Position numbers and translations under genes: made by a program. From the NCBI RefSeq assembly GCF_016722925.1, contig NZ_JAEQNC010000025.1:1-35255 (forward strand): 35,255 nt of DNA, given 5' to 3'. The stretch comes from Phytoamicus setariae (GTDB lineage: Bacteria > Pseudomonadota > Alphaproteobacteria > Rhizobiales > Rhizobiaceae). How positions within the stretch are numbered: the first letter of the stretch is position 1; every line of letters begins with the position of its first letter. Below the pieces are notes generated by a model. The model ran no database searches, had not been told where the DNA came from, and saw only the letters and a list, made by a program, of their open reading frames with translations. Shown in pieces: positions 290 through 20,614 of this stretch.

Positions 290-327
290 GTGCGGGGCGA
301 AGCCGCCTGCTTTCCTTGCTGGCAGCA

Positions 328-1140
328 GGCACCGTAAACTTAGTGCTGCCAAGGGAGTTGTCATGTCTGGATGGCGCCCGTTTGGCAATGTGATTTTGGA
401 TGATGGTTGAGCTGGTAGCGTCGCCTTAACTTTGGTGGGGCACAGGATGGCCATCATGGTGCCAGTTTATGCCGCCATCGACAGGGTGATTTCGCTCCAG
501 GTGTTCATGGCGGCGTTTCACAGTTTGCGATGTTCAGCAGGGGTCGTCTTCTTGCGTTGAAGATGGAAGAGGTTTGCGATCGGGCCATGGATGGAGATGA
601 AGCGCTGGCATTGCGCTGCCGACTTGAACCGGATCATGCCTCGCTCTCGTCGTCGAACAGCCCGATGCGAATTCTCCGCCCGGTTATTCAGGCCCTTATG
701 CGAGCGATGCTCGACACTGGGCATGATTTCTCTTCTGGCTACATTGTAGGATCTGAGCTTGTCGGTGATCATGACACGTGGCGCGACGCACTGGCCCTTC
801 AGTAGCTTTCGCATCAATCGAAGGGCCGCCGTCTTGTCGCGACGGCTTTGGATCAGGGCATCGAGAACATGACCATCAGCATCGACGGCGCGCCACAGCC
901 AGTATTTCTTGCCCTTGATAGCAACGACCATTTCGTCCAGATGCCATTTGTCGGCCAAACTTCCCCTGGATCGACGTCGGATGGCACGGGCAGATTCCCG
1001 GCCGAACTTGGCAGCCCATTCGGCGACTGTTTGGAACGAAACTGCCATGCAAACATGGTCCGATATCGCTCGCCTTCACGCCAACTGAACGAAAGCGATA
1101 CGCCCACTTTCCAGCCTGAGCGCGCTAAGTTTACGATGCC
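328..1140 (-). mobile_element. Degenerate IS6-family insertion sequence (813 bp)
   Basis: The ends are matching inverted repeats, 328-346 (GGCACCGTAAACTTAGTGC) and 1122-1140 (reverse complement GGCATCGTAAACTTAGCGC), with 17 of 19 bases identical. The length of about 0.8 kb and the single DDE transposase inside fit the IS6 family. The 8 bp outside each end (320-327 tggcagca, 1141-1148 tctctaag) do not match, so there is no target-site duplication. This fits an old insertion or a recombination product, common for IS6 elements acting in cointegrate formation. The transposase is broken, so the element should not move by itself. It sits between the aminotransferase gene and the ergothioneine cluster and may mark an island edge. 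Confidence 0.8.
467..1107 (-). pseudogene. IS6-type DDE transposase, frameshifted and nonsense-interrupted
   Basis: The frame 1048-518 carries the catalytic core: first Asp in KWHLDEMVVAIKGK, second Asp in ITDKLRSYN, Glu in NNRAENSHRAVRRRER. Upstream, the expected N-terminal HTH piece is recognisable only in another frame (LSFSWREGERYRTMFAW near 1100-1045, then a shift into VSFQTVAEWAAKFG), which implies an indel around 1045. Downstream, TGA at 518-520 follows HRKL, but the same frame continues with NAAMNTWSEITLSMAA to a TAA at 467-469. That is the usual C-terminal tail of this group, so the TGA looks like a CGA-to-TGA nonsense change. Two lesions make this a pseudogene. The exact 5' limit is uncertain. 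Confidence 0.78.
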
Positions 1141-1193
1141 TCTCTAAGTGTTCTCGACCGCCGTCGCGCACGACGGCAGCGGCGGCTCAGAAC

Positions 1194-1273: not shown

Positions 1274-2821
1274 CTAAACGGCATTTACCTTTGGCTGCAT
1301 CGAAATGTCGTATTTGCTGATCATTGCCACTATCTGCGTGATGTCGCCACTCAACACGCTCAGGTCGTCGAGTGAACCCACACGGTCGCGAACGGCCTTG
1401 TAGCTGGCTTCAGCGCCTATGCCCAGCTTTTCAGGCATGCCCCTGAGTTCGAGCGCATGGGCAGAGACCAGCAGTTCAATCGCTACCAGGTAGCGGAAGC
1501 GTTCGATGATCGAGCCGGTCTTTTCCACGACACGCGGTGCCATGGAAGCCTGGTCTTCGATGCTGTCCGACACGGCAATCGGCGCCAGTGAAATCGGGTT
1601 GGCCAGATGGCGAATGTCGGCTTCCATCGCCGCAATGGCCTTTTGCAGAACTGCAAATCCGCTTCGGTTCTGTCCTTCCGGCACCAGAAAGCGCGGCAAT
1701 TCGGATGTGGCGGGGGACATCAACTTCATCAGCCGATAGGCCGTACCTGTCGCACAGTGTGCGATGGCCTGCCCAAGGCGCTCCCACGACAGCACGAACG
1801 CCACTATGTCGAAGTTGCCGTTGGACAGAATTTCTCCCTCGGCCGGCAGCACTACGGGGTTGTCGCCGGAACTTGCTAGTTCAATTTCCGTCGCAGCGCG
1901 GACTTCATCGATTGCATGTCGCAGCGCGCCCAGCACTTGCGGGACGCAGCGATAGCTCAGCGGGTCCTGAATGCGCCTCGCGGCTCCGTCGTCAAACAAA
2001 GCGCTGCCCGCCAGTAGGCTGCGAAGTTGCGCGCCGACGACTCTCTGTCCGAATGCGGGCCGCGCGGCCAGCACACGATCGTCAAGTACGGTGAGGTTGG
2101 CGCGGAACGCCTCAAAATTCAAAGAAATCGCCTTGAGCGACCAGTCGAAGACCTGCTCTATGTCCTCGATCTTCAGACAGGCCTGCCCGACGGAAAGGCT
2201 GTTGGCCCCCACCAGCGCATGCCCATCCTTGGCGCGAATATTGAGCGGCTTCAGGCCCGTCCGCTCAAGCGCGACGGATGCCGGCAGGATTTCCCCGCCA
2301 TATTCGACCTCGCCATGACCGAGAAGCGCCATGCCCATATGGGCAAGCGGAGCCAGATCAGCCGCGCCGATCGAACCCCATGACGGAATAACCGGATGCA
2401 CGCCGGCGTTCAACGCCGCAACGAGCCCATGGAACACGCCGGAAGATACGCCGGTGCCCCCTCTCGACATGCAGGCAATGCGCACCGCCATGATCGCGCG
2501 AACCTCATCCTGCGCAAGCGCGGGCCCGACGCCGACCGCGTGGCCATGCGGCACGCGCAGCTGAAACTCGATCAGATCGTCTTCGCTCAGCCGCGTATCT
2601 ACACCCGCGCCCAATCCGGTGTTCAATCCGTATACCGGCAGGTTGAGTGCCAGATGACGCTCGACGACGGCACGCGCTGCATTGACGCGCTTGTCCGCCT
2701 CGCTGGTGATGACGACAGAGTGATGTCTCCTGGCGATCGCGGCAATTTCCTCGATCTTTGGCGGCGTGGCGCCCAGGGAAATGATCGGCGGCACAACCAG
2801 GGATACAGGATGGGAGGTCAT
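1274..2821 (-). CDS. Ergothionase (histidine ammonia-lyase superfamily, no MIO triad)
   Basis: Likely removes trimethylamine from ergothioneine to give thiourocanate, a cytosolic first step. The 515-residue protein matches the HAL/PAL fold family in length and motifs: YGLNTGLGAG at 64-73, QLRVPHGHAVG near 87-97, and GSIGAADLAPLAHMGMALLG near 149-168. In true HAL the last motif reads GASGDLAPL and Ala-Ser-Gly cyclises to the MIO electrophile. Here it is GAADLAPL, one residue shorter and without the Ser-Gly pair, so MIO cannot form the usual way. Ergothionases are known HAL relatives whose trimethylammonium leaving group makes MIO unnecessary, and every other enzyme of that pathway lies next door. 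The start at 2821 (MTSHPVS) follows AAGGA about 9 nt upstream; an open extension to 3094 has no family similarity. It is divergent from the operon at 3239. Confidence 0.85.
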   Translation of the reverse strand: MTSHPVSLVVPPIISLGATPPKIEEIAAIARRHHSVVITSEADKRVNAARAVVERHLALNLPVYGLNTGLGAGVDTRLSEDDLIEFQLRVPHGHAVGVGPALAQDEVRAIMAVRIACMSRGGTGVSSGVFHGLVAALNAGVHPVIPSWGSIGAADLAPLAHMGMALLGHGEVEYGGEILPASVALERTGLKPLNIRAKDGHALVGANSLSVGQACLKIEDIEQVFDWSLKAISLNFEAFRANLTVLDDRVLAARPAFGQRVVGAQLRSLLAGSALFDDGAARRIQDPLSYRCVPQVLGALRHAIDEVRAATEIELASSGDNPVVLPAEGEILSNGNFDIVAFVLSWERLGQAIAHCATGTAYRLMKLMSPATSELPRFLVPEGQNRSGFAVLQKAIAAMEADIRHLANPISLAPIAVSDSIEDQASMAPRVVEKTGSIIERFRYLVAIELLVSAHALELRGMPEKLGIGAEASYKAVRDRVGSLDDLSVLSGDITQIVAMISKYDISMQPKVNAV

Positions 2822-3238
2822 ATGGTCGTCCTTACAATTCAGTATTTCGAATTCACGCCGCCGCATGGCGCATCGCTCACGTCGTTCTTGCACTTCCACG
2901 CCGCACACCCGGCCCGCCCCTGCCGGCCAAGGCAGGGCAGTCAATCCCGAGACTATTGGTGATCCGGCCTTGATAACCGTTCGCGCATCCTGACATCGGC
3001 GCAGCCGAAAGCACGGATCGTGTAGACACCGACTACCACGGCTCCCTCCACCGACAGGATATCCCAAATCCTGTATGGGCCATGTCGCAGCCACCGCTAA
3101 AACAGCAGTTGCAAAACCACATATTTTGTCCAGAAATTGGGATATCCCGCATCAGTCCCGAGCCGCCTAAGGTGGCTTGACCGGCTCCACAGCTTTCCAT
3201 GCGAGCAGCCGTAACATGGCTTATCCCAAGGAAGTCTC
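2822..3238. promoter_or_regulatory. Divergent promoter region with two inverted TTGGGATATCC boxes
   Basis: This 417-bp gap separates the start codons of ergothionase (minus) and hydantoinase (plus), so both pathway arms must be transcribed from it. It contains GGATATCCCAA at 3057-3067 and its exact reverse complement TTGGGATATCC at 3137-3147, about 80 bp apart, each with the palindromic core GGATATCC. Paired boxes in a divergent promoter suggest operators for one regulator, and the LysR-type protein at 8704-9909 is the nearest candidate. No convincing sigma-70 hexamers could be fixed by eye. The part nearest ergothionase (2822-3050) is open in its frame but has no recognisable protein similarity. 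Confidence 0.55.
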
Positions 3239-4621
3239 ATGTCCGATTTTGATCTCGTTCTCAAAGGCAAGCTGGTGCTCGCCGATCGCATCGTCCCATC
3301 GGGATTTGTGGCTGTGCGCGACGGCATTGTCGCCATAATTGGGCAAGGCGCGATGCCGGGTGCGAGCGAGAGCCACGATCTGGGTGAAGCCCTGATCATG
3401 CCGGGCGCCATCGATGCCCAGGTTCACTCGCTCTCGCAGAAAAACCAGGAAGACTTCATCTGGTCGACCCGCGCAGCCGCAGCCGGCGGCATCACGACGA
3501 TCGTTGACATGCCCTATGATGAAGGCAATCTCGTCTGCTCTGCGGCTTCATTCAAAAGCAAGGTCGTGCATGCGGAAAAGCAGGCCCGGATCGATTTTGC
3601 TCTTTATGGCACAATTGACCCGGAGGAAGGTGCTGTACGCATTGCCGAACAGGCAGCAGCCGGCGCGGCGGCCTTCAAGTTTTCGACGTTCGGCACGGAC
3701 CCCAAGCGCTTTCCACGCATTCCCGCAGCGCTGATGGCCGAATGCTTTGCAGAAGTCGCCAAAACCGGACTGACAGCAGGCGTTCACAACGAAAACGATG
3801 AATATGTGAATACGGCAATGGCTGCGGTGAAGGCGGCCGGCATCACCGATTACACCGCCCATGGCCTGTCGCGGCCACCGCTGACGGAGCTTCTGGCCAT
3901 GCTGGAAATTTATGAAATTGGTGCGGCGACCAATTGCCCGGCCCATGTGGTCCACTGCTCGCTCGAACGTGGCTATCAAATCGCCGCCAACTACCGAACC
4001 CAGGGCTATGCCGCCACGGCGGAATGCCTCATCCACTATCTAATGCTTGACGAGGAAACCGATGCACGCCGCCTGGGCGGGCGCTCCAAATGCAACCCGC
4101 CGCTCAGACCCCGTGCAGAAGTCGAAGCCCTGTGGCGTCAGCTGGCCAGCGGCAATGTCACGCTGCTGTCCACCGATCACGTCAGCTGGTCGCTCGATCG
4201 CAAGACCAATCCGGATATGCTTGCCAATGCATCCGGCCTGCCCGGACTGGAAACCATGGTCCCGCTGTTCGTCAAAGGCGCGATGGAACGTGGGGTGCCG
4301 CTTTTCTGGGGCGCACGCCTGATGGCTTATAATCCGGCCCGCCATTTCCGCATCGACCACGTCAAGGGCGCGCTGGAGCTCGGCAAGCATGCCGACATCA
4401 CCGTGCTGACACCGGAGCCTTATGTCTATGACGCGGCCAAGAGCGGCAACAACATTGCCGGCTGGTCGCCTTTTGACGGCACGACATTGCCCTACCGCGT
4501 TGCCGCGACCTATGGCCGTGGCCGTCTTGCCTACGACGGGACGAATGTGGTGGCCGAGCCGGGATGCGGCGCGTTTGTCCGTCCTCCCGCTTCAATCCGG
4601 CTCGATGAGACGCGGATATGA
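3239..4621 (+). CDS. Hydantoinase / dihydropyrimidinase-like amidohydrolase
   Basis: Predicted to open the hydantoin ring (hydantoin-5-propionate to N-carbamoyl-glutamate) late in ergothioneine breakdown. The 460-residue protein shows the cyclic amidohydrolase layout: IMPGAIDAQVHSLSQK near the N-terminus, the candidate carboxylated lysine in AAFKFSTFG, VHNENDE, HVVHCSL, and the final Asp in STDHVSW. The first metal motif reads QVH instead of HxH; a QVH form also occurs in some dihydroorotase-like proteins, so it is not proof of inactivity. SLSQK replaces the FREPG seen in dihydroorotases. It is the first gene of a plus-strand operon and overlaps the M20 hydrolase by ATGA. Allantoinase or dihydropyrimidinase activity is possible on sequence alone; the neighbours point to the ergothioneine route. 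Confidence 0.82.
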   Translation: MSDFDLVLKGKLVLADRIVPSGFVAVRDGIVAIIGQGAMPGASESHDLGEALIMPGAIDAQVHSLSQKNQEDFIWSTRAAAAGGITTIVDMPYDEGNLVCSAASFKSKVVHAEKQARIDFALYGTIDPEEGAVRIAEQAAAGAAAFKFSTFGTDPKRFPRIPAALMAECFAEVAKTGLTAGVHNENDEYVNTAMAAVKAAGITDYTAHGLSRPPLTELLAMLEIYEIGAATNCPAHVVHCSLERGYQIAANYRTQGYAATAECLIHYLMLDEETDARRLGGRSKCNPPLRPRAEVEALWRQLASGNVTLLSTDHVSWSLDRKTNPDMLANASGLPGLETMVPLFVKGAMERGVPLFWGARLMAYNPARHFRIDHVKGALELGKHADITVLTPEPYVYDAAKSGNNIAGWSPFDGTTLPYRVAATYGRGRLAYDGTNVVAEPGCGAFVRPPASIRLDETRI

Positions 4622-5874
4622 GCGGCAAGCGCAATCTTGCCGTATCGGCAGAGCGCATCGGAGCCGATCTGGATGCGCTGGCTGCCATCACCGAAGAAGG
4701 CAGGCCGTGGACGCGCCGCGCTTTCACGCCGATGCACCTGGAAGGGCGCGCCTATCTTGAGCGGCGTTTCCGCGATGCCGGCCTGGACACGCATATCGAC
4801 GCCAGCGGCAACCTGATCGGTCGTCGCAACGGAAAAGACCCGGCGCTCGGCGTGATCATGCTCGGCTCACATTCCGATACGGTGCCTGACGGTGGCCGCT
4901 TTGACGGTGTCGCAGGCGTTGTGGCGGCACTGGAAGTGGCGCGCGCGTTGGCGGAAGCCGGCGTTCAGCTTGATCATACATTGGAAGTCGTCGACTTCCT
5001 GGCCGAGGAGGTTTCCATCTTCGGCGTTTCGTGCATCGGCAGTCGCGGCATGGCGGGGTTGCGCCCCGCGGAGTGGCTGAGCAGGGAAGCCAGCGGCATG
5101 ACCTTGGCCGAAGGGCTCGCGATCGCCGGCGGCAATCCGGATCAGTTGATGAAGCGCGCCGATGTCAGGGGCTTTCTCGAGCTGCATATCGAGCAAGGGC
5201 CGATCCTCGAAGCGGAACACTGCAATATCGGCATTGTCACCGCAATCGCCGGCATCACCCGGATTGAAGTCACAGTCGAAGGGCGTGCCGATCATGCCGG
5301 AACCACGCCGATGAACGCCCGATGCGATGCGCTGAGCGCTGCCATGCGGCTGGTTCTCGGCATCGAAACAAGCGCAGCAACGCTTGCCAAGGGGCCGTGC
5401 CATTTCGTGGCGACTGTCGGTGAATTTGCGATGCTGCCCAATGCGGCCAATGTCGTGCCATCGCATGTAAGGCTTCTGATCGATGCCCGCTCGGAGCTGC
5501 GCGACGATATCGAAGCGTTCACGGCACAGCTTGAAGCATTGTGCGCTGAGGTCACCGCCACCTCCGGCGCCGTCATTGCCGCACGGCCGATCTCGGACGC
5601 TTCGGCGGTGCCTATGCATACCGATGTTATCGATCTTCTCGGTCAAAGCGCGGATGCGCTTGGCATCAGCCAGCGCCTGATGGCGTCCGGCGCAGGACAT
5701 GATGCCGCCTTTATGGCGCGGATCTCCAAAGCGGGAATGGTTTTCATCCCCTGCCGCGACGGGCGCAGCCACGCGCCTGAGGAATGGGCCGAAAACGAAG
5801 ACATAGCCTTGGGAACCGCCGTGCTCATGGAAACGGTGAGAACACTAGACCAGCAATTGAAGGAAGAAAAATAA
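4618..5874 (+). CDS. M20 hydantoinase/carbamoylase-family amidohydrolase (N-carbamoyl-glutamate hydrolase)
   Basis: Likely hydrolyses N-carbamoyl-L-glutamate to glutamate, CO2 and ammonia, the last step of the pathway. The 418-residue protein has the dizinc signatures of the beta-ureidopropionase / N-carbamoyl-L-amino-acid hydrolase group: GSHSDTVPDGGRFDG (metal His and bridging Asp), DFLAEEVSIFG (paired Glu), LELHIEQGP, the dimerisation-domain motif ADHAGTTPM, and SGAGHDAAF near the C-terminus. It overlaps the hydantoinase stop by ATGA and runs into the DUF917 gene by TAATG, so the three should be translationally coupled. A hydantoinase followed by a carbamoylase is the standard pair that ends pyrimidine or hydantoin degradation. 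The family call is strong; the glutamate assignment comes from context. Confidence 0.85.
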   Translation: MSGKRNLAVSAERIGADLDALAAITEEGRPWTRRAFTPMHLEGRAYLERRFRDAGLDTHIDASGNLIGRRNGKDPALGVIMLGSHSDTVPDGGRFDGVAGVVAALEVARALAEAGVQLDHTLEVVDFLAEEVSIFGVSCIGSRGMAGLRPAEWLSREASGMTLAEGLAIAGGNPDQLMKRADVRGFLELHIEQGPILEAEHCNIGIVTAIAGITRIEVTVEGRADHAGTTPMNARCDALSAAMRLVLGIETSAATLAKGPCHFVATVGEFAMLPNAANVVPSHVRLLIDARSELRDDIEAFTAQLEALCAEVTATSGAVIAARPISDASAVPMHTDVIDLLGQSADALGISQRLMASGAGHDAAFMARISKAGMVFIPCRDGRSHAPEEWAENEDIALGTAVLMETVRTLDQQLKEEK

Positions 5875-6965
5875 TGGGACGCATTCTCACTGAAAAAGAT
5901 GTCGAGCCGGCAGTGCTCGGCGGTTCGGTCTATGCTGCCGGCGGTGGCGGATGGGCCGATCACGGCCGCAAACTTGGACATGCCGCCGTTTGCGCTGGCC
6001 AGCCGGAACTGATCGATATTGAAGAACTTACCCCGGACGAGTGGGTCGCCACCGCCGCAGCGATCGGCGCACCGGCATCGACCACCGCATGGGAGATGCA
6101 GGGCATCGATTATGTCAAAGCCGTTCGGATGCTGCAGGATGAGCTTGGCGAGCGCGTTTCCGCCTTGATGGTCGGGCAGAACGGCAAATCCTCAACACTG
6201 AATGCCTGGCTGCCATCGGCAATCCTCGGCACCAAGGTTCTGGATGCCGTCGGCGACATGCGCGCCCATCCGACCGGCGATATGGGGTCCATCGGCATGG
6301 CAAGCTCGCCCGAGCAGATGATCCAGACCGCCGTCGGCGGCAACAGGGCGGAAAACCGCTACATCGAAGTGGTGGTGCGCGGCGCCACGGCCAAAGTGTC
6401 GCCGATCCTGCGCACGGCGTCGGACCAGTCCGGCGGCTTTATCGCATCGTGCCGCAACCCGTTGCGCGCCTCCTATGTCAAGCAGAATGCCGCGCTCGGC
6501 GGCATCAGCCGCGCGTTGAAACTCGGCGAAGCGATGATCGCGGCACAGGGCCGCGGTGGTCATGCCGTGATCGATGCGATTGTTGCCACGACCGGCGGAT
6601 CGATCCTGATCGAAGCGGACGTAACGGCAAAGTCGGTTGTCTATACGGCAGAGGCATTTGACGTGGGCACGGTCACGCTCGGCAGCGGTTCTGGCGCCAT
6701 GACCCTGCACATCATGAACGAGTACATGGCCGTCGATACCGCCGATGGCACGCGCCTGGCGACGTTTCCTGACGTGATCACCACCCTCTCGCCGGATGCC
6801 GAGGCGCTCAGCGTCGGCCAGTTGCAAATCGGCCAGCGCGTTTTCCTTTTGCATGTGCCAAAGACAATCATTCCGCTGGCATCCAGCGTAAAGGACCCGG
6901 CTGTCTATCCGGTTGTCGAAAAAGCACTTGGCATTTCAATCGCCGAATACGCCCTTTCGAAGTGA
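5874..6965 (+). CDS. DUF917-family protein, probable thiohydantoin desulfurase
   Basis: The 363-residue protein starts at the ATG inside TAATG at 5872-5876, giving MGRILTEKDVEP. It carries DUF917 hallmarks: GGSVYAAGGGGWADHG near the N-terminus, VGQNGKSSTLN, DMRAHPTGDMGSIGM around residues 125-140, and a C-terminal domain with TLSPDAEAL and QIGQRVFLLHVP. DUF917 is poorly characterised and often sits beside hydantoinases. In the reconstituted ergothioneine pathway, a new enzyme type removes sulfur from a thiohydantoin intermediate between thiourocanate hydratase and hydantoinase. This gene fills that one otherwise empty step, so it would release H2S and give hydantoin-5-propionate. The reaction is inferred from position and process of elimination; the catalytic residues are not identified here. 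Confidence 0.78.
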   Translation: MGRILTEKDVEPAVLGGSVYAAGGGGWADHGRKLGHAAVCAGQPELIDIEELTPDEWVATAAAIGAPASTTAWEMQGIDYVKAVRMLQDELGERVSALMVGQNGKSSTLNAWLPSAILGTKVLDAVGDMRAHPTGDMGSIGMASSPEQMIQTAVGGNRAENRYIEVVVRGATAKVSPILRTASDQSGGFIASCRNPLRASYVKQNAALGGISRALKLGEAMIAAQGRGGHAVIDAIVATTGGSILIEADVTAKSVVYTAEAFDVGTVTLGSGSGAMTLHIMNEYMAVDTADGTRLATFPDVITTLSPDAEALSVGQLQIGQRVFLLHVPKTIIPLASSVKDPAVYPVVEKALGISIAEYALSK

Positions 6966-6999
6966 TTGCTGCTGCCTGTGAATGACAAGGATCGATACT

Positions 7000-8658
7000 A
7001 TGCCTAAACCCAATCCTCGAAATCCGCACTTTCCCATCCCTGCAGGTCCGGAGCTTCGCGCAAAAGGCTGGCGACAGGAGGGACTGCTGCGCCTCCTCGA
7101 AAATGTCCTGTCGGTTGGCGAGGACCCAGATAATCTGGTCGTTTATGCCGCCCTCGGCAAGGCCGCGCGCAATTGGGCTGCCCATGATGCCATCGTGCGG
7201 ACGCTGAAGCATATGGACGAGGACCAGACGCTGGTGATCCAGTCCGGCAAGCCTGTCGCACTCTTGAAGACGCACAAGCAGGCACCGCTGGTGATCATGG
7301 CGAACTGCAACATCATCGGCCAATGGGCGAACGCAGAAAACTTCTATGACTACCAACGCAAGGGGCTGATTTGTTGGGGTGGCCTGACGGCCGGAGCGTG
7401 GCAGTATATCGGCAGCCAGGGTGTTATTCAGGGCACGTATGAAATCTTCATGCGGATCGCCGAAAAACGCTTTGGCGGCTCGCTTGCCGGACGCTTCATC
7501 CTGACCGCCGGCTTGGGCGGCATGGGCGGCGCGCAGCCGCTCGCCGGGCGCATGGCGGGGGCAGCGATCCTTGTTGCCGACATCGACCCCGAACGTGTGC
7601 GCAAGCGGAAGGAAATCGGCTTTCTGGACGAGGTCGCTGCTAGCCTTGATGAGGCGCTGGCGATCATCGATCAGGCGGTTGCCGACAAGCGTGCCGTTTC
7701 CGTCGGCATCGTCGGCAATGCCGCCGATATCTACCCGGAAATCGCCGCACGCGGCATCGTGCCGGATATAGTCACAGACCAGACTTCGGCCCACGATCTG
7801 GTTTACGGCTATGTACCGCGCGGCCTGAGCCTCGAAGAAGCGCGCAGCATGCGTGAAAGCCGGCAGGCGGAACTGATGGCGGCTAGCCGCGCCTCCATCG
7901 CCATCCATGTTCAGGCCATGCTCGACTTCCAGAAGAAGGGGGCTGAGGTTTTCGACAACGGCAACCTGATCCGCACCCAGGCCTTTCAGGAAGGCATAAG
8001 CGATGCCTTCAGCATTCCGATCTTTACCGAAGCCTATCTGCGGCCGTTGTTCTGCAAGGCAATCGGTCCCTTCCGCTGGATGGCGCTTTCCGGCGATGAG
8101 GCCGATATCGCGCGGATCGACGATCTCGTCATGGAGATGTTTGCCGACAATGCGGGCGTTACCAACTGGATCCGGCTGGCACGCGCCAATGTTCCCTTTG
8201 AAGGGCTCCCGGCGCGTATTGCGTGGCTCGGCCACGGCGAACGCACGCGGCTTGCACAGGCGGTCAATGAACTGGTGCGCAATGGCGAGCTGAAGGGACC
8301 GGTTGCCTTCTCGCGCGATCATCTCGATGCGGGCGCGATGGCACATCCGAACATCATGACCGAGAACATGAAGGATGGATCCGACGCCATTGCCGACTGG
8401 CCGCTTATCAACGCCATGACGCTCTGCGCATCCATGGCCGATCTCGTTGTCATCCATTCCGGCGGCGGCGGTTATGCCGGATACATGACGAGTTCAGGCG
8501 TTACTCTTGTAGCCGACGGCACGGAAGACGCCGATCTGCGGCTTGGCCAGGCGATCACCAACGATACATCGCTCGGCATTATCCGTTACGCGGATGCCGG
8601 ATATGACGAGGCGATAGAGGCCGCGGCAACCCACGATGTCGGGCATATCGCCAGCTAA
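7000..8658 (+). CDS. Thiourocanate hydratase (urocanase paralogue)
   Basis: Predicted to hydrate thiourocanate after ergothionase has acted. The 552-residue protein is clearly urocanase-like: SGKPVALLKTH, TAGAWQYIGSQGVIQGTYE, the NAD-binding TAGLGGMGGAQPLA, DQTSAHD, FSRDHLDAGAMAHPN, MKDGSDAIADWPLINA. It departs from histidine-pathway urocanases at active-site positions. The motif LPARICW, whose Cys (Cys410 in P. putida HutU) is essential, reads LPARIAW with Ala at residue 408, and DQTSAHDPLNGY reads DQTSAHDLVYGY. These changes fit a different substrate rather than decay, since the rest is intact. ATG 7000 was chosen because AAGGA lies 8 nt upstream; the in-frame ATG at 6982 has no ribosome site. 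It follows DUF917 by 34 bp and ends the operon. Confidence 0.85.
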   Translation: MPKPNPRNPHFPIPAGPELRAKGWRQEGLLRLLENVLSVGEDPDNLVVYAALGKAARNWAAHDAIVRTLKHMDEDQTLVIQSGKPVALLKTHKQAPLVIMANCNIIGQWANAENFYDYQRKGLICWGGLTAGAWQYIGSQGVIQGTYEIFMRIAEKRFGGSLAGRFILTAGLGGMGGAQPLAGRMAGAAILVADIDPERVRKRKEIGFLDEVAASLDEALAIIDQAVADKRAVSVGIVGNAADIYPEIAARGIVPDIVTDQTSAHDLVYGYVPRGLSLEEARSMRESRQAELMAASRASIAIHVQAMLDFQKKGAEVFDNGNLIRTQAFQEGISDAFSIPIFTEAYLRPLFCKAIGPFRWMALSGDEADIARIDDLVMEMFADNAGVTNWIRLARANVPFEGLPARIAWLGHGERTRLAQAVNELVRNGELKGPVAFSRDHLDAGAMAHPNIMTENMKDGSDAIADWPLINAMTLCASMADLVVIHSGGGGYAGYMTSSGVTLVADGTEDADLRLGQAITNDTSLGIIRYADAGYDEAIEAAATHDVGHIAS

Positions 8659-8703: not shown

Positions 8704-9909
8704 TCACATTTTCAGCAGGGACAATGCTCTGTGGAATATCGACTGCGAGGCGGCCGTTGCGCCACTGACGAGTAGAAGCTGCATGTCGTATTCCGGGGGG
8801 AGAGGCAGACTGTCCAACTGGTCACTATAATCACTCAACGCTGATTGCGGCAGGACCGTGATATAGTCATGATCCATCACCAGATTGGCAATGACTGGAA
8901 TAATATCCATTTCGGTGATCGATATCTCCCCAAGCATGTCCTTGGACAGGGTGTCGCTCAAGTATTGCATTGTTTTTTGGCGAAGCCCGTTGCGCGCACT
9001 TGGCAACACCAGCTTGCCGCTGGACAGAAGGCCGGGAATGTCGAATTGTCCGACATGTATGCGCTCCGAAGAGCCGACAATGGCCAGCGACGAACGAGAA
9101 ATGATGCAGCTTGGCAGCTCTTTGGGCACCATATCGGTGTCGATCAGTGCCAGATCGTAGTGTCCATTCTTCAATCCATGCAGCAGTTCTTCCGCAGTGC
9201 CCGAGGAAACGAATAAAGGAGTCTGTGGTCGGTTTCGGCTCCATTCTGCTACCAACGTCGCAGACATCCGGGCAATTCGGCTGCCCGAACTCAACGGGCT
9301 GACCGAACCAAGCCGGACGGTCCTGTGCAATCGCCGAAACCGGTCGGACGAACCCTGCGACATCTTCAGCCAGATATCATCGAGTTCTTCGGCAATTGTC
9401 AGCAACGCCGCTCCTTGCGGCGTGAGACTTATGCCATTTTGGCTGCGCTCCAGCAGCACGGTACCAATTTCACTCTCGATATGTTTGATCTGGCGGGTGA
9501 GTTGTGGCTGGCCCATGGGGATTTCCATCGCAGCGCGACGGATACTGCCACAACGTGACGTAACGATAAAACGTTGAAGTGCAGGGAGCGAAATCGTCAG
9601 CTTCGCACTCCGCTTTTGCAGCGCGTCGTCTGACTGATGGCTGCTGGTTTCGTCGCAATCGTCCGATAACTTGACGATCTTTCTGACAAGTTCAGCTGCT
9701 CGCGACAGGATGGTCGTAATTCGTTGCCCTTCGAGAGTCGCCAGGATGCGATTGCCTGATGTGATGGTCAAAGGCATCGCAATGTTCGATTGCAAACGGA
9801 TCAGCGCCGCCGAAACGCTGGAAACCGGCTTTCCCAGTTTTTCAGCTGCCTTGCGAACGCCTCCACAAACCAAGACCTGGTGCACGATGATGAATGTGGA
9901 AATATCCAT
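8704..9909 (-). CDS. LysR-type regulator with two tandem N-terminal HTH domains
   Basis: At 401 residues it is about 100 longer than a usual LysR regulator, and the extra length is a second HTH. Residues 3-62 resemble a LysR wHTH (FIIVHQVLVCGGVRKAAEKL, then VSSVSAALIRLQ). After a linker at 63-103, residues 104-170 form a canonical one (ALQRFIVTSRCGSIRRAA, QPQLTRQIKHIESEIGT, LTPQGAALL). The rest is the periplasmic-binding-protein-like effector domain (VRLGSVSPL, DLALIDTDMVP, HDYITVLPQSAL). It is convergent with the ergothioneine operon and lies 129 bp downstream of the ABC transporter on the same strand, so it may regulate either or both. The 9909 start has only a weak ribosome site (TTGAGAA). 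Ligand unknown. Confidence 0.85.
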   Translation of the reverse strand: MDISTFIIVHQVLVCGGVRKAAEKLGKPVSSVSAALIRLQSNIAMPLTITSGNRILATLEGQRITTILSRAAELVRKIVKLSDDCDETSSHQSDDALQKRSAKLTISLPALQRFIVTSRCGSIRRAAMEIPMGQPQLTRQIKHIESEIGTVLLERSQNGISLTPQGAALLTIAEELDDIWLKMSQGSSDRFRRLHRTVRLGSVSPLSSGSRIARMSATLVAEWSRNRPQTPLFVSSGTAEELLHGLKNGHYDLALIDTDMVPKELPSCIISRSSLAIVGSSERIHVGQFDIPGLLSSGKLVLPSARNGLRQKTMQYLSDTLSKDMLGEISITEMDIIPVIANLVMDHDYITVLPQSALSDYSDQLDSLPLPPEYDMQLLLVSGATAASQSIFHRALSLLKM

Positions 9910-10038: not shown

Positions 10039-11682
10039 TCATGCCGGCTCGCGTCGCTTCTCAAGAACCTCATCGAGCCAGTCGGCGCGCATTTCGGGGA
10101 TCGATGACAACAACAGTTCCGTGTAGGGGTGGTAAGGTGGCGCGAAGACGACAGGCGTCTTGCCATAGGCGACAACCTGCCCCTTGCGCATGACAGCGAC
10201 CTTATTGGCAACGCGGCGAACCGTGCTGAGGTCATGCGTGATGAACAGATAGGCAAGCCCGAACTTGTCCTGCAGGCGCCGCAACAGCAGCAGAATGTCT
10301 TCCGCCACCAATGGATCAAGCGCCGAGGTCACCTCATCGCATATGATGACATCCGGTTCGGCGGCGAGTGCGCGCGCGATGCAGACGCGCTGCTTCTGCC
10401 CGCCTGAAAGCTCGGTCGGACGACGCGTAATGAAATGCTCCGGCAGTTCGATCTGCCGCAACAGTTCCAGAACGCGCTCGCGTACTTCCTTCTTCGACTT
10501 GCGGAAATAGAACTCGATCGGGCGGCCGATGATTTCCAGCAAGGTCTGGCTCGGGTTCAGCGCCATATCCGGCATCTGGTAGATCATCTGGATACGCCGA
10601 AGCTCTTCGCGCGAGCGCTGCTTTATCGCCCGTGACAATTCCTTGCCCTGAAAGACGAGATTTCCGCTTTCGCGAGGCAAAAGTCCGACAATGACACGCG
10701 CCAGCGTGCTTTTGCCCGAACCGGATTCGCCCACGACAGCCAACGTATCGCCACGCCTGAGTTCCAGCGTCACATTGTCGACGACCCGCGAAAGCCCGCT
10801 ATAGCTGGCGACGACCTGGTTGATATCGAGAACGACAGGTTGATCGGCGTCCACGTCCTCGACGAAGTTCTCGATCGTTGCTGCCTGACGTTCGGCGACC
10901 AGCCGCCTGGTATAGTCTTCGCGCGGCGCCTGAAGAATGCGTTGGGCATCGTCGAGCTCGACCATCTTGCCATGACGCAGCACCATAATGCGATCGGCGA
11001 CCTGTGCGACAACAGCCAGATCATGCGTGATATAGAGAGCTGCAGTGCCGGTGTCGCGGATCAGCCTGCGGAAAACCAGCAAGACTTCCACCTGTGTGGT
11101 CACGTCGAGTGCGGTGGTCGGCTCGTCCATGACAAGCAGATCCGGCTTGGCGATCATCGCCATCGCCGCCATGGCGCGCTGAAGCTGGCCGCCGGAGACC
11201 TGATGCGGATAGCGATGACCGAACGTCTCGGGATCGGGCAGTTCGAGGGCGCGAAACAGCTGTACAGCCGATTCCCAGGCCTCGGCCTTGGTCTGCAGGC
11301 CATGGCGCACCGACACCTCGCAAACCTGCCTGCCGATGGTCAGGGCAGGATTGAATGAGGCCGCCGCGCTTTGGGCGACATAGGCGATGCGGACGCCGCG
11401 CAAGCCGCGCCGCTGGGTGCTCGACAGGTCATCCGTATCCTCGCCGGCAAAGATGATCTTGCCGCCGGTAACCGTGCAGCCGGGTCGCGAATAGAGCAGG
11501 CTCGACAGGCCGATGGTGGACTTGCCGGCACCAGATTCGCCAATCAGCCCCAGCACTTCGCCACGTTTCAGCGAGAAGCTGACATCGTCGACAAGAACCG
11601 TGACCGCTCCTGACTGACTTTGCGCCTCGATACGCAAGCCTTCGATCCGAAGCAGGTTGTCATCTTGAAAAGCAGTCATCAT
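10039..11682 (-). CDS. Peptide-type ABC transporter, fused tandem ATP-binding protein (DppD-DppF-like)
   Basis: The 547-residue protein carries two complete ABC ATPase domains. The first has Walker A GESGAGKST at 48-56, signature VSGGQLQR and Walker B LLVMDEPTTALD. The second has GESGSGKST near 317-325, signature LSGGQKQR and Walker B VIICDEVTSALD. This fusion replaces the separate D and F subunits of dipeptide/oligopeptide/nickel importers and would energise uptake at the inner face of the membrane. Its start overlaps the DppC-like stop by ATGA (11679-11682), so it is the last transporter gene of the operon. A GCCGGC-ATGATT-GCCGGC hairpin overlaps the stop codon and may slow read-through towards the LysR gene. 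The substrate is not readable from an ATPase. Confidence 0.9.
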   Translation of the reverse strand: MMTAFQDDNLLRIEGLRIEAQSQSGAVTVLVDDVSFSLKRGEVLGLIGESGAGKSTIGLSSLLYSRPGCTVTGGKIIFAGEDTDDLSSTQRRGLRGVRIAYVAQSAAASFNPALTIGRQVCEVSVRHGLQTKAEAWESAVQLFRALELPDPETFGHRYPHQVSGGQLQRAMAAMAMIAKPDLLVMDEPTTALDVTTQVEVLLVFRRLIRDTGTAALYITHDLAVVAQVADRIMVLRHGKMVELDDAQRILQAPREDYTRRLVAERQAATIENFVEDVDADQPVVLDINQVVASYSGLSRVVDNVTLELRRGDTLAVVGESGSGKSTLARVIVGLLPRESGNLVFQGKELSRAIKQRSREELRRIQMIYQMPDMALNPSQTLLEIIGRPIEFYFRKSKKEVRERVLELLRQIELPEHFITRRPTELSGGQKQRVCIARALAAEPDVIICDEVTSALDPLVAEDILLLLRRLQDKFGLAYLFITHDLSTVRRVANKVAVMRKGQVVAYGKTPVVFAPPYHPYTELLLSSIPEMRADWLDEVLEKRREPA

Positions 11683-12503
11683 GCCCCTCTGTTCACTTGC
11701 GTTTGGGTTGACACCAGCCAGTCAACCAGCAGGTTGATACCGATGGTCAGCAGCGCGATTGCCCCAGCGGGATAGAAGACCGCAGGCACGCCCAGCATGA
11801 TCAATTGCGAATAGTCCTTCACCATGCTGCCCCAGTCTGCAAAGGGCGGCTGAATGCCAAGACCAAGGAAGCTCAAGGCCGAGATAAACAGGAAGGTGAA
11901 GCAGAAGCGCAGGCCGAATTCGGCCACCAGAGGCGGTAGGGAATTGGGCAGGATCTCGCGGCGGACGATCCACCACAATCCTTCCCCGCGCATGTGGGCG
12001 GCTTCGACATATTCGAGCGATGCGATGTTCATCGCCAGCGCACGGCTCACCCGGAAAATGCGTGTGGCATCCAGAATGGAAATCGTAACGATGAGCACGA
12101 TCAGATCGGTGCCCATGACCGACAGGACGACCATCGCAAAGATCAGAGCCGGCATCGACAGCAGCAGGTCGACGATGCGCGACAATGCGACATCGGCCCA
12201 TTTGCCAAGCACCGCCGCGGCAAAGCCGGTAAACACACCCATCGAGAACGACAGGGTCGTGATGATCAGCGACAGGCCGATTGACAGACGCGCGCCGTAG
12301 AGCAGGCGCGAAAGCACGTCACGCCCCAGATTGTCGAGCCCCAGCCAATGCTGGGCGCTGGCCGGAGACCAGGCGTTGCCGACGATCTCCGATTCCGAAT
12401 AGGGGGCGAGAACAGGGACGAACACTGCAATCAGAACATTGAGGGTCACGATCAGCAGGCCGATCTGTGCTCTCAGGGACATTTTATGACCAAACAACCG
12501 CAT
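11679..12503 (-). CDS. Peptide-type ABC transporter permease (DppC-like)
   Basis: The 274-residue inner-membrane protein has the features of the DppC/OppC group: an N-terminal membrane segment (IGLLIVTLNVLIAVFVPVLAPY), the HWLGLDNLGRDVLSRLLYGAR stretch typical of DppC proteins, further membrane spans, and an EAA-type cytoplasmic loop (EYVEAAHMRGEGLWWIVRRE, then ILPNSLPPLV) that docks on the ATPase. The start at 12503 has GAGGT just upstream. Only 3 bp separate it from the DppB-like stop, and it overlaps the ATPase start by ATGA, so the three membrane and ATPase genes form one translational unit. Confidence 0.9.
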   Translation of the reverse strand: MRLFGHKMSLRAQIGLLIVTLNVLIAVFVPVLAPYSESEIVGNAWSPASAQHWLGLDNLGRDVLSRLLYGARLSIGLSLIITTLSFSMGVFTGFAAAVLGKWADVALSRIVDLLLSMPALIFAMVVLSVMGTDLIVLIVTISILDATRIFRVSRALAMNIASLEYVEAAHMRGEGLWWIVRREILPNSLPPLVAEFGLRFCFTFLFISALSFLGLGIQPPFADWGSMVKDYSQLIMLGVPAVFYPAGAIALLTIGINLLVDWLVSTQTQVNRGA

Positions 12504-12506
12504 GGT

Positions 12507-13454
12507 TTACCTCGGATGCCGCAAGCGCGGATTGCTAATCAGGGCGAGGATGTCGGCGGTCATGTTCAAGGTGATGAACGCCGTGGCGAAGATCAGACCA
12601 CAGGCCTGAACGACAGGGACATCGCGCTTGGACACCGCATCGACCATCAACTGGCCAAGACCGGGATAGACAAAGACAACTTCAACCACCACGACGCCAA
12701 CGATCAGATAGGCCAGATTGAGCGCTACGACGTTGATGATAGGGGCCAGTGCATTGGGCAGCGCATGCTCGACGACGACACGCCATTTCGGCAGTCCCTT
12801 GAGAAGCGCCATCTCGATATACGGGCTGGACATCACGGCCAGAACCGACGCGCGGGTCATCCGCATCATGTGGGCGATGATCACCAGAACCAGCGTCAGC
12901 ATCGGCAGAAACGACAGATAAAGCCGCTCGAAAAAGCTCGTGTCGGGCGTCACGCTGGCCAAAACCGGGAACCAGCCGAGCTGAACCGCAATCCATTTAA
13001 TCAGCAGGTAGCCGAGAAAATACTCCGGCAGCGAAATGGCCAGCAAGGTTGCCGCGTTCGCGACGCTGTCAAACGCGCTACCCTGCCATGCAGCCGCCAG
13101 AACGCCGAGCAGCACGGCCAGCGGCACGGCGATCAGCGCCGCATAGATGGCCAGGAAGAATGTGTTGTGCAGACGAGGTGCAAGGTCTTTGGCGACATCG
13201 CGCTGGTTGACCAGCGACGTGCCGAGGTCGCCTTGCACGGCCTTGCCAAGCCATTCGACGTAGCGTTCCACCGCCGGCCGGTCCAGGCCAAGTTCGTGGC
13301 GCATGGCAGCGACATTCTCGGGCGTAGCATTGTTCTGCAACACTGCCTGCGCGAGGTCTCCGGGGAGTATTTGCGTACCGGCGAAAATCAGCACTGACGC
13401 TGCCCACAGGGTTATCAGTCCCAGTGCAGCCCGCCGTATCACGAGTGTAAGCAC
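12507..13454 (-). CDS. Peptide-type ABC transporter permease (DppB-like)
   Basis: The protein belongs to the DppB/OppB permease group. It has a first membrane span (LGLITLWAASVLIFAGTQIL), then LPGDLAQAVLQ, the external domain with HELGLDRPAVERYVEWL and GDLGTSLV, further spans, and an EAA loop (PYIEMALLKGLPKWRVVVEHALPNAL). I chose GTG 13454 (MLTLVIRRAALG) because AGGAAGGATGGGGGA lies directly upstream and the family begins with a short basic segment before the first span. A TTG at 13487 in the same frame is possible but gives an atypical 11-residue leader. With the DppC-like partner it forms the translocation channel. A 218-bp gap with a strong hairpin separates it from the binding-protein gene. 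Confidence 0.88.
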   Translation of the reverse strand: MLTLVIRRAALGLITLWAASVLIFAGTQILPGDLAQAVLQNNATPENVAAMRHELGLDRPAVERYVEWLGKAVQGDLGTSLVNQRDVAKDLAPRLHNTFFLAIYAALIAVPLAVLLGVLAAAWQGSAFDSVANAATLLAISLPEYFLGYLLIKWIAVQLGWFPVLASVTPDTSFFERLYLSFLPMLTLVLVIIAHMMRMTRASVLAVMSSPYIEMALLKGLPKWRVVVEHALPNALAPIINVVALNLAYLIVGVVVVEVVFVYPGLGQLMVDAVSKRDVPVVQACGLIFATAFITLNMTADILALISNPRLRHPR

Positions 13455-13593
13455 GTTTCCCCCATCCTTCCTATCGTTCAGTCCCAAAGCGCGGCGCGTT
13501 CAAAACGGATCACCACACCCACTCTCATTGTTCGATTTTTTGCATTGGCATGGCCACGCCAAGCGTTGCCGTTCGCCGTGTAATGCTCCAGCA

Positions 13594-13631
13594 GAGTGGT
13601 CGCAGCAGCCATAGGCTAACTGCGACCACTC
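13594..13631. terminator. 12-bp perfect hairpin between binding-protein and permease genes
   Basis: GAGTGGTCGCAG (13594-13605) and CTGCGACCACTC (13620-13631) form a perfect 12-bp stem with a 14-nt loop. The hairpin lies after the substrate-binding-protein stop and before the permease start on the transcribed minus strand. Structures at this point commonly stabilise the binding-protein mRNA and lower downstream expression, giving excess binding protein. There is no T-run, so attenuator or stabiliser is more likely than full terminator. Confidence 0.55.
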
Positions 13632-13672
13632 AACGTCTTTAGTGTCGACGGGCTTGGAGACGCCAGTCAGTT

Positions 13673-15232
13673 TCAGGCGTCGAGCCATACCTTTTCGCAC
13701 AGCCGACCATTGTTGAGGTCGAACTGGGTATGAGGCGTGTGGCCCTTTACCTTGATGTTGTGAGCGTCGACCCAATCGGAGAATACCGGGATCAGAGCGC
13801 CGCCCTGATCGGACAGCATGGCCTGCATTTCCCAGATCAGCGTCTTGCGCTTTGCTTCGTCAACTTCGGCCTTGGCGTCGCTGAGCAACTTGTCGAAGGC
13901 GTCGTTTTTCCAATGGGTCTCGTTCCAGCTGGCGCCGGAATAATAGGCCGATGCCAGCATGTCGGTTGCTGAGGCGCGGCCCGCCCAATAGGACGTGCAG
14001 AACGGTGCCTTCAGCCAGACATTGCTCCAGAAACCATCGTGCGGCTCTTTCTTGGCAGTGATGTTGATGCCTGCCTTCGAAGCCGAGTCTTGAAAAATGA
14101 CACCCATGTCGACGGCGCCGACATAGGCCGCATCGGAAGCCGACAGGACGATGTTGGTGTCGGCCAGGCCAGCCTTCTTCAGGTGGAACTTGGCTTTGTC
14201 CAGATCATAGGGGCGCTGTACCAGTTCGGTGTTGTAGAACGGGTCCGAAACCGGGATCGGCTGGTCGTTGCCGATGCGGCCGAAACCGTTGAACAGCGCA
14301 CCGAGGATTTGTTCGCGGTTGCAGGCATATTTGAGAGCCAGGCGGAAATCCGGATTGTTGAATGGCGCGACATCGGTTTGCATCGCCATGATCGTGTGCC
14401 AGCCACCAGGTGCCTGCACCAGTTCAAGGCTCGGCGCCGCACTCAGCAGGCTGACGGTCCGCTTGTCGACGTCATTGATGACGTCAACCTGTCCCGAGAT
14501 CAGCGCATTCATGCGTTGAACGATGTCGTTGACGACAGTGATTTCGACGCGCTCGACATTGCCGCGGCCCTCTTTCCAGTAGTTGCCGACATTGCGCAGC
14601 ACGCAACGGACACCCGGATCAAAGCTTTCGACGGTGAAGGCGCCGGTGCCGATCGGGTTTGCCCAGTCGGTGAAGCCTGCAGGCACAACGAGAATGTGGT
14701 AGTCGCTCAGTGCGTAGTGCAGATCGACGTCGGCTGCGGTCAGCGTGATCTTGATCTGATTTTCGTTGAGCTTGGTGATTTCTTTGACATGCTTAAGTCC
14801 GGTCGCAGCAGCCGATTTGCTGTCCTCGCCGACATGCAGTGAAAGCGAGTAGATGATGTCATCGGCAGTCATCGTCTTGCCGTTGTGGAAAACGATGCCC
14901 TTTCGGACGTTGAACACCCATTCCATCGCCTTGTCGCCGATTTCCCAGCTCTCGAAAAGCTCGGGGCGAGGAACGCCCTTTTCGTCGATTTCGATCAGGC
15001 CGTTCATGACGCTATAGCCGACGAGCAGCGGAACGGCATTGGAATACGTGGTCGGGTTCAGGCTGTCGGTGGTGCTGCCGCCGCGCATGCCGATCTTGAG
15101 CGTGCCGCCCTTCTGTGGCGTTTCCTGCGCGCTGGCCGAGCCGATCATGTAGGGCGCCATCGCAGCCGACAGGGTAATACCCGACGCTGTCTTTAGAAAG
15201 TTCCGGCGTGACTGTGAATTCCAAAGCGTCAT
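13673..15232 (-). CDS. Peptide-type ABC transporter substrate-binding protein, Tat-exported
   Basis: A member of the SBP_bac_5 (peptide/nickel) family, about 519 residues from ATG 15232 (MTLWNSQS), which has GGGAGTTGAG upstream. In-frame starts further up (TTG 15262, ATG 15247) would only lengthen the leader. The N-terminus carries a twin-arginine signal, SRRNFLKTASG, a hydrophobic stretch and a likely cleavage site after GSASAQ, so the protein folds before export. Mature-protein motifs fit the family: GGTLKIGMRGG, NPTTYSNAVPLL, MEWVFNVRKGIVFHNGKTMTADDI (read in parts), and PIGTGAFTVESFDPG. It binds a ligand in the periplasm for the two permeases downstream. Candidate ligands from context are ergothioneine, a sulfur amino acid or a small peptide; none can be proved from sequence. 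Confidence 0.88.
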   Translation of the reverse strand: MTLWNSQSRRNFLKTASGITLSAAMAPYMIGSASAQETPQKGGTLKIGMRGGSTTDSLNPTTYSNAVPLLVGYSVMNGLIEIDEKGVPRPELFESWEIGDKAMEWVFNVRKGIVFHNGKTMTADDIIYSLSLHVGEDSKSAAATGLKHVKEITKLNENQIKITLTAADVDLHYALSDYHILVVPAGFTDWANPIGTGAFTVESFDPGVRCVLRNVGNYWKEGRGNVERVEITVVNDIVQRMNALISGQVDVINDVDKRTVSLLSAAPSLELVQAPGGWHTIMAMQTDVAPFNNPDFRLALKYACNREQILGALFNGFGRIGNDQPIPVSDPFYNTELVQRPYDLDKAKFHLKKAGLADTNIVLSASDAAYVGAVDMGVIFQDSASKAGINITAKKEPHDGFWSNVWLKAPFCTSYWAGRASATDMLASAYYSGASWNETHWKNDAFDKLLSDAKAEVDEAKRKTLIWEMQAMLSDQGGALIPVFSDWVDAHNIKVKGHTPHTQFDLNNGRLCEKVWLDA

Positions 15233-15330
15233 TTTCTCAACTCCCATTTGTTGAACTCCCAATTACTTGTTTGTTTTTATTGAGATTGTGTCGTGGCCGA
15301 TAACAGCGACGCGATCGGCCGGCGGGTCGT

Positions 15331-16539
15331 CTAGTTGCCATTTTTCGCGTCAAGCGCCGCGAACAAATCGTCAATCAGATCTCTGGTGGCTTCGACGCCG
15401 GCCGATAGCCGGAGCAGTCCTGGATCGACATGCGAATTGGGGCCTTCGACCGCCTCGCGCCGCTCGATCAGGCTTTCCACCCCACCCAGCGATGTCGCCG
15501 GCTTCCAGATTTTTGTCCGCGTCATGATGCGCTCGGCCTCTTCGGCCCCGCCTGCGACGATAATGGAGAGCATGCCGCCAAAGCCCCCGGCCATCTGACG
15601 GGTCGCCAGAGCATGACCCGGATGCGTTGGCAGACCGGGATAAAACACGGCGTTCACCGAGGGATGATCTTTGAGAGCCTCGGCCAAAGCCATCGCCGAT
15701 TCACAAGCCCGGGCAACGCGTAGATGCAATGTGCGCATGCCGCGCATGAGCAAGGCCGCTTGGAACTGGCCGAGAATACCGCCGTGATAATCACGGTTGA
15801 ACAAGACCCGTCCCCAGAAATCATCGACGGTCGCTGTCAGCGCCGCCCCGGCCAGAACGTCGCTGTGGCCATTGAGATATTTGGTAGCAGAGTGAACGAC
15901 GATATCCGCGCCAAATGCCAGCGGCCTGGCAAGTATCGGCGTAGCAACCGTATTGTCGACGACCAATCGAGCCCCTGCCTTGTGCGCAATCTCGGCCAGA
16001 GCCGCAAGATCGTAGATCTGCCAATGGGGGTTGGACGGGGTTTCAGCCCAGACCAGACGCGTCACGCCCGGAATCACGGCTTGGCGAACCTTGTCCAGAT
16101 CGGTCATGTCGACATGGTCGAACCGAATGCCCCAATGGGTCGAAAAGCCTTTCAGCCAGGTCCTGAGGCCGTGGTACATGTCGATGGGAAACACGCAGTG
16201 ATCGCCCGGTTGGAGGGCCATGACAACCGCGGTCATGGCGGACATACCAGAACTGAACAAACGGCAGTCCGCAGCGCCCTCGAGGACCTTCAACGTCGCC
16301 TCGGGCATTTCCAGGCCGGGATAGCCGTAACGGCTATAGCTCCATCCGGTTGGCGAGTAGCCTTCGGGTGGACGCAGGAACGTCGTCGCCAGATGGATGG
16401 GAGGAACAACGGCGCCGGTGGGGTCATGCTCGTCACAGTAACCTTGGGCGAGTGTTGTATCTGCGACGTAATGCGACATTCGATTCTGAGATCCATTAGA
16501 AGGCGCTGAAGCACCTGAGGCGCTGGAGCCGATAAACAT
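15331..16539 (-). CDS. Trans-sulfuration-family PLP enzyme (cystathionine gamma-lyase/synthase-like)
   Basis: A 402-residue fold-type-I PLP enzyme of the Cys/Met metabolism family. Visible landmarks are VVPPIHLATTF, LFSSGMSAMTAVVMAL, AETPSNPHW, VVDNTVATP, and the Schiff-base lysine in HSATKYLNGHSD. Two active-site regions are unusual: the common YSRTGNPT reads YSRYGYPGLE, and the common LYGGT reads MYHGLRTW, so the substrate may differ from cystathionine or methionine. The start at 16539 has GGGAA upstream; an internal ATG (MSHYVADT, 16479) matches the family N-terminus and is an alternative. It is divergent from an Lrp gene and lies 98 bp upstream of the ABC binding-protein gene on the same strand, so enzyme and importer may share a transcript. 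Confidence 0.82.
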   Translation of the reverse strand: MFIGSSASGASAPSNGSQNRMSHYVADTTLAQGYCDEHDPTGAVVPPIHLATTFLRPPEGYSPTGWSYSRYGYPGLEMPEATLKVLEGAADCRLFSSGMSAMTAVVMALQPGDHCVFPIDMYHGLRTWLKGFSTHWGIRFDHVDMTDLDKVRQAVIPGVTRLVWAETPSNPHWQIYDLAALAEIAHKAGARLVVDNTVATPILARPLAFGADIVVHSATKYLNGHSDVLAGAALTATVDDFWGRVLFNRDYHGGILGQFQAALLMRGMRTLHLRVARACESAMALAEALKDHPSVNAVFYPGLPTHPGHALATRQMAGGFGGMLSIIVAGGAEEAERIMTRTKIWKPATSLGGVESLIERREAVEGPNSHVDPGLLRLSAGVEATRDLIDDLFAALDAKNGN

Positions 16540-16593
16540 TTCCCGACTATGCCACCAGTCCTTTCGACGGTTTTCTCTATTTCGGCGCGCGAC

Positions 16594-16612: not shown

Positions 16613-16731
16613 CAGGGTCGCTGTACGCATAAAACTGTCATTCCCAATTGACTTGGCACGCCGCGGCCGGTCTTGCTCTGGGGAGAAGTTACGTCTAGAT
16701 GGGCAATCTCGGTGGCCACATGGAGTGCTGA

Positions 16732-20584: not shown

Positions 20585-20614
20585 TCCCGCCGGTTGAATT
20601 GCGAAAGAATTGAC

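Follow-up and report, generated by a model that had tools for sequence, protein, structure and literature searches.

The window analysed here is an entire contig (G000:C18, 35,255 bases) of Phytoamicus setariae, a member of the family Rhizobiaceae whose genome of 5.6 Mb has an estimated completeness of 99.9%. Near its left end lie five genes that resemble the known clusters for the degradation of ergothioneine, an antioxidant that contains sulphur, to glutamate (ert), in which the first enzyme, a lyase without the methylidene-imidazolone (MIO) triad, appears to have been exchanged for one of another lineage. The genes are listed below with their NCBIfam scores; AU stands for the approximately unbiased test.

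1274-2824, minus strand: MIO-less protein of the aromatic-amino-acid-lyase family, 516 residues, proposed ergothionase (trimethylamine lyase); Pfam, motif, tree and AU tests, start codon and ribosome site.
3239-4621, plus strand: predicted ErtD, hydantoin-5-propionate amidohydrolase; NF058538 766 bits (cut-off 600), second ErtD model NF058539 374 (cut-off 650).
4618-5874, plus strand: predicted ErtE, N-carbamoyl-L-glutamate amidohydrolase (M20); NF058540 591 bits (cut-off 520).
5874-6965, plus strand: predicted thiohydantoin desulfurase (DUF917 / S-Me-THD family); NF058529 571 bits (cut-off 440), S-methyl type NF058532 287 (cut-off 450).
6982-8658, plus strand: predicted thiourocanate hydratase; NF058530 1024 bits (cut-off 930), S-methyl type 751 (cut-off 880), hutU 699 (cut-off 375); tree.

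The five families named in the initial annotation are all found in this place. All five open reading frames (ORFs) are present and open from end to end, and the Pfam matches are Lyase_aromatic (E-value 1.1e-134), a family match that settles the predicted fold of the lyase, amidohydrolase (3.6e-17), peptidase M20 (4.7e-28), S-Me-THD, formerly DUF917 (1.6e-20), and three urocanase domains (best 2.3e-81). The lyase ORF as read from the GTG at 3094 is about 90 residues too long; the start is likely the ATG at 2824, which has AAGGA upstream. The DUF917 gene probably begins at the ATG at 5874 and not at 5784, since the NCBIfam match starts at residue 33 of the longer ORF.

A five-step bacterial catabolism of ergothioneine was reportedly described by Beliaeva, Leisinger and Seebeck in 2021; the pathway is thus already published, and clusters of this type are known. 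The window likewise has steps 2 to 5, by orthology to curated NCBI 'Ert' models, and a MIO-less lyase for step 1, i.e. the same five families. It differs in the lineage of its lyase, which is not that of the usual ones, and in the divergent orientation of this gene relative to the other four.

Steps 2 to 5 can be assigned with high confidence by orthology to the curated models, all four of which exceed their cut-offs. We note that for the ErtE gene the unspecific 'Zn-dependent hydrolase' model NF009531 outscores NF058540 (632 bits, cut-off 486, versus 591). Among the related ert loci, taken as the best 80 of 194, strong matches were found to ErtD in 76, to ErtE in 79, to the desulfurase in 80 and to the hydratase in 77. 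All four genes stand in the same order and on the same strand in 74 of the 80 loci, with median identities of 73, 62, 79 and 79%, respectively, and this conserved order argues that the four-gene arrangement is not due to chance. In the tree of the urocanase family (36 rows) the 27 ert-type rows, including the window, are split from the 9 HutU rows with a Shimodaira-Hasegawa-like support (SH-aLRT) of 100. L042 (Rhizobium) and L039 come closest to the window row, at 86%, and both of these loci carry a standard ert lyase (L039 at 4294-5919, L042 at 4321-5949). The predicted hydratase is 51% identical to the HutU of its own genome, whose hutH and hutU lie on a different contig (C33), apart from the ert cluster.

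The lyase has GSIGAADLAP instead of GASGDLAP, i.e. the Ala-Ser-Gly triad is absent. The triad is also absent in the T. denticola ergothionase (PDB 6s7j/6s7q) and in 65 of the 66 standard ert lyases; the remaining one, L055, has a shorter frame and is unaligned at this region. Against the PDB the best match is the ergothionase 6s7j (276 bits), the histidine ammonia-lyases reaching 245 and less. The identity of the lyase over the alignment is 32% with 6s7j and 35% with P. putida HutH; with four rhizobial ert lyases of the standard type it is 25-29%. The NCBIfam search returned only models below their cut-offs for this protein, the best being hutH with 381 bits versus 539. It had been predicted earlier that automatic annotation would call such a cluster histidine utilisation or allantoin degradation; this is true of the lyase and of deposited relatives ('DUF917', 'urocanate hydratase', 'hutH') and no longer of the four genes, for which NCBI models now exist. 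The base composition gives no foreign signal (GC content 0.61 versus 0.60 for the window).

Trees of 63 and 66 rows contained one clade of 49 and 52 rows, respectively (support 100/99 and 100/98), and all 52 rows are without the triad. One group within it (98/93) holds the T. denticola ergothionase, the ert-adjacent lyases of Burkholderia arboris and of two g96 genomes, and the standard rhizobial ert lyases. The window lyase falls in a separate group of 29 rows (94/88) together with its plasmid kin, the inner 10 rows being supported by 100/100. AU tests rejected the grouping of the window lyase with the ergothionases (p 2.2e-11), of its clade with the ergothionases (p 0.0025) and of its clade with HutH (p 2.2e-71). 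They were run after the first tree; two of them follow the terms on which the initial annotation was to be refuted and the third was framed afterwards. Judged by these trees, the window lyase is not an orthologue of the characterised ergothionase and belongs to a sister lineage, a deep placement whose certainty is weakened by long branches (T. denticola, Burkholderia, Deinococcus). The ergothioneine-to-glutamate assignment made earlier holds for steps 2 to 5, by the four equivalogs, the urocanase tree and the separate hut genes. Step 1 is not settled by it: the lyase proved to be distinct from HutH, as had been expected, and also from the ergothionase clade, which had not. The character 'beside ert genes' requires three changes on the tree, at least two of them on starred branches. 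A third lyase lineage in an ert cluster is that of Deinococcus (L207), on a long branch.

The putative active-site residues aligned to 6s7j (chain numbering) include Y53, H83, R280, H344, K383 and E411 in the window lyase, most of which are common to the wider MIO-less clade or to HutH; S194 is replaced by G. The window lyase resembles the T. denticola ergothionase in lacking the triad and in having the equivalents of H83, R280, K383 and E411, and differs from it in clade, in the low identity and at position 194. All 22 other rows that are ergothionases or adjoin ert genes have H83; within the 29-row group of the window it is found only in the window, L121, L123, L125 and L127, the others having R. 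At position 194 the 13 nearest clade rows have V (12) or N (1), and the 22 ergothionase or ert rows have S (21) or A (1). H83 together with a small residue at 194 may be compatible with an imidazole-thione ligand.

The nearest kin are Rhizobium plasmid genes of 63-65% identity, labelled hutH or histidine ammonia-lyase in the annotated records examined. Those of the Rhizobium leguminosarum group (L148-L150) have the same GSIGAADLAP and join the window lyase in a clade with 100/100, but differ from it by R83 and V194, versus H83 and G194, and have neighbours unrelated to ert. In three annotated examples the lyase gene stands between hutC and an ABC binding-protein or transporter gene (glycine-betaine type in two), and the same loci hold ornithine cyclodeaminase, CoA-transferase, SDR, and MaoC or dehydratase genes. 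The plasmid cluster as a whole (L148:6057-16738 on pRL12, L149 and L150), i.e. the MIO-less 'hutH', hutC, betaine-type binding protein, ornithine cyclodeaminase, PhnD-type ABC transporter, CoA-transferase, SDR and MaoC, resembles a betaine degradation pathway not yet described; its substrate might, at a guess, be a legume betaine such as hypaphorine.

A thiourocanate hydratase above cut-off was found in 40 of 297 genomes of the family. Lyases were sorted by Pfam score, 225-315 bits counting as the standard type; this range was calibrated with L189-L195, whose identity to a standard ert lyase is 52-55%, and with L219 (G088, 52%), the remaining ones being classed by score alone. A lyase of standard-type score is present in 30 of the 40 genomes, and in 28 of these the listed coordinates place it no more than 10 kb from the hydratase. 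Another four (G096, G170, G230, G284) have a lyase of 409-412 bits about 5.5 kb from the hydratase; in the two that were examined (L213, L214) it groups with the T. denticola ergothionase and adjoins the four genes. Neither type was recognised in five (G049, G068, G152, G156, and G236, where a 458-bit lyase lies on a different contig). Among the 40 genomes, only that of the window has the window-type lyase beside the hydratase genes. Fourteen of the 80 related loci have no lyase in the stretch, and by score their genomes encode a standard-type lyase (all 15 genomes checked have one, the fifteenth being that of L050, whose lyase lies inside its stretch).

Three further observations concern these loci. 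The lyases L213:5523-7265 and L214:4867-6609 and that of Burkholderia arboris (L205) have, by eye, a start like a signal peptide and are possibly periplasmic. The stretches examined at L204, L209 and L215-L218 contain a four-gene ert set and no lyase. Of these, L204 and L209 adjoin TRAP transporter genes, which suggests uptake of thiourocanate or another intermediate.

The cluster seems to be accessory within its genus, since the four genomes of the same genus in the sample have one urocanase-family match each, all below the thiourocanate cut-off. The genome has only three lyases, i.e. HutH on C33, the window lyase and a distant one on C4; at the given completeness this inventory means that the assembly has no standard-type ergothionase. 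A search of the genome with the EgtD model gave no match, so that ergothioneine would have to be supplied from outside the cell. The third lyase (L116:9388-10929, G000:C4) adjoins Opp-type transporter genes. Its MIO stretch is deleted differently (GSVG followed by YLAHAAE), a deletion also affects this stretch in five related rows, and these six rows are sister to the 52-row clade (99/93) and keep the HutH-like N at 194. From the alignment, one loss of MIO across the two groups cannot be told apart from two. Elsewhere in the genome (C34) two more genes of the DUF917 family, L210 and L211, are adjacent to each other.

We consider it probable that the window lyase is an independently recruited trimethylamine lyase acting as ergothionase. 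In the pathway proposed, it would eliminate trimethylamine from ergothioneine to give thiourocanate, in place of the usual ergothionase; thiourocanate would then be hydrated, sulphide removed, the hydantoin ring opened, and N-carbamoyl-glutamate hydrolysed to L-glutamate. The MIO electrophile would be unnecessary, since trimethylamine is by itself a good leaving group. The role of the lyase in step 1 is likely, though unproven; that ergothioneine is its substrate and that it took the place of an earlier ergothionase are both inferred. A common source of the lyase and the four genes was considered and rejected, as none of the 80 related loci has a close relative of the lyase (best 37%). The pathway itself being known, what is new, within the reach of the literature searches, is the exchange of the lyase: among the titles listed, none dealt with ert gene variants or with MIO-less relatives of ergothionase. 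PMC13405746 describes ergothionase as lacking MIO and carries its own warning that divergent homologues are left uncounted.

A number of observations weigh against an ergothionase function. Two of the AU tests separate the lyase and its clade from the ergothionases, and its plain identity to the T. denticola enzyme does not exceed that to P. putida HutH. K383 occurs in 51 of the 52 rows of the MIO-less clade and is thus not diagnostic of ergothioneine. H83 is the residue of HutH too, where its equivalents contact the ring. The closest kin are linked to genes other than ert. Two genomes (G194, G250) combine a 65% relative of the window lyase with a standard-type ergothionase, the latter on a separate contig near the hydratase, which makes it probable that the usual substrate of this clade is something else. 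The five hydratase genomes with no recognised ergothionase suggest that the four genes can occur in the absence of a lyase and that the adjacency could be accidental. Finally, the lyase is on the minus strand and the other four genes on the plus strand, so that the set is not one operon.

A wider proposal, which we put forward tentatively and at somewhat less than even chances, is that the broad Hyphomicrobiales clade of MIO-less 'histidine ammonia-lyases', sister to the ergothionases, consists of lyases for quaternary-amine amino acids. One of these, with H83 and G194 in the pocket, would have been recruited as an ergothionase of separate origin into an otherwise standard cluster, and the plasmid kin with CoA-transferase, MaoC and SDR would represent a betaine pathway of legume symbionts that has yet to be described.

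Of the alternatives, the one that survives best is still unlikely. It holds that the lyase acts on another betaine, most simply on hercynine, which would yield urocanate for the HutU on C33, and that the four genes degrade thiourocanate coming from neighbours or from outside. Members of the clade with H83 do occur away from ert genes, none being found in the 20-kb regions around L154, L156 and L157, nor around L162, and G073, G155 and G217 have one urocanase-family match each, below the thiourocanate cut-off; the plasmid members with R83 adjoin a betaine-type binding protein, ornithine cyclodeaminase and CoA-ester enzymes, and four-gene sets without a lyase are known, two of them beside TRAP transporters. 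Nevertheless, the lyase borders the cluster just as the standard-type ergothionase does (10 kb or less from the hydratase in 28 of 30 genomes), and the window row is alone in its clade in having G at 194.

It is quite improbable that the cluster serves S-methyl-ergothioneine or ergothioneine sulfonate instead of ergothioneine. NCBI has S-methyl models for two of the same families, and the sulfonate route is said, by title, to be the subject of a published paper; on the other hand, the S-methyl models stay under their cut-offs (751 versus 880 and 287 versus 450), a result that bears on the S-methyl substrate, the NCBIfam matches including no model of the sulfonate route. A duplicated histidine-utilisation or allantoin cluster is hardly credible, since the resemblance at the level of families (hutH 381 and allantoinase 247 bits, both below cut-off; hutU 699, above its 375) is outweighed by the higher score of thiourocanate hydratase (1024), the missing MIO triad, the rejected clade with HutH (p 2.2e-71) and the true hut genes on C33.

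Two further features flank the cluster:

327-1141, minus strand: IS6-family element with 20-nt terminal inverted repeats (arms 327-346 and 1122-1141, 90% complementary); NF033587 159 bits (cut-off 125) for ORF 518-1048.
8704-9909, minus strand: predicted LysR-type regulator, start probably near 9600; Pfam HTH_1 from residue 110, relatives in ert loci.

The IS6 element ends about 130 bp past the stop codon of the lyase and is a plausible, though unproven, route of its arrival. The LysR gene follows the hydratase; the initial annotation had passed it over in stating that no gene was left over. Related LysR hits are present in 43 of the 80 ert loci, with identities of 39-48% where a hit above 35% was printed, and the protein is likely to regulate the ert cluster.

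The next module (10039-17214) comprises an Opp transporter, a pyridoxal-phosphate (PLP) enzyme and an Lrp regulator. As it occurs on two plasmids without nearby ert genes, the ert unit would end near 9,600-9,900. The Opp-type ABC transporter (10039-15262) was considered as an importer of ergothioneine because in four of the five g158 genomes (G345, G414, G442 and G488, not G381) a lyase relative of 49-51% lies within about 6 kb of a binding-protein relative of 45-46%. It was rejected as cluster-specific, since it travels with the PLP enzyme (15331-16539) and the Lrp gene on a Shinella and a Roseateles plasmid, where the 10-kb flanks contain no annotated ert genes. At L158 (G488) and L159 (G345) the 49-51% lyase relative has as neighbours an ammonium-transporter gene and an Opp transporter akin to that of the window. 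The amino-acid ABC transporter at 27572-30002 was not assigned to the cluster: its ATPase is up to 54% identical to proteins of ert loci, the binding protein has no match there and the permease has two (the better 30%).

The region 15331-27500 contains two PLP enzymes of Cys/Met metabolism, two Lrp-type regulators and an E1 component (TIGR03186; relatives are named mdeB) with E2 and E3, and is probably devoted to the breakdown of sulphur amino acids. A protein of the IF-2B family (23859-25334, minus strand), presumably MtnA-like, and a class II aldolase (30562-31536, plus strand) are reminiscent of the methylthioadenosine dihydroxyacetone phosphate (DHAP) shunt.

If the exchange of the lyase is true, similarity searches for ergothionase can overlook functional replacements, and this would affect estimates of which organisms produce trimethylamine from ergothioneine. 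It would also point to MIO-less genes, some of them labelled hutH on deposited plasmids, as candidate betaine lyases.

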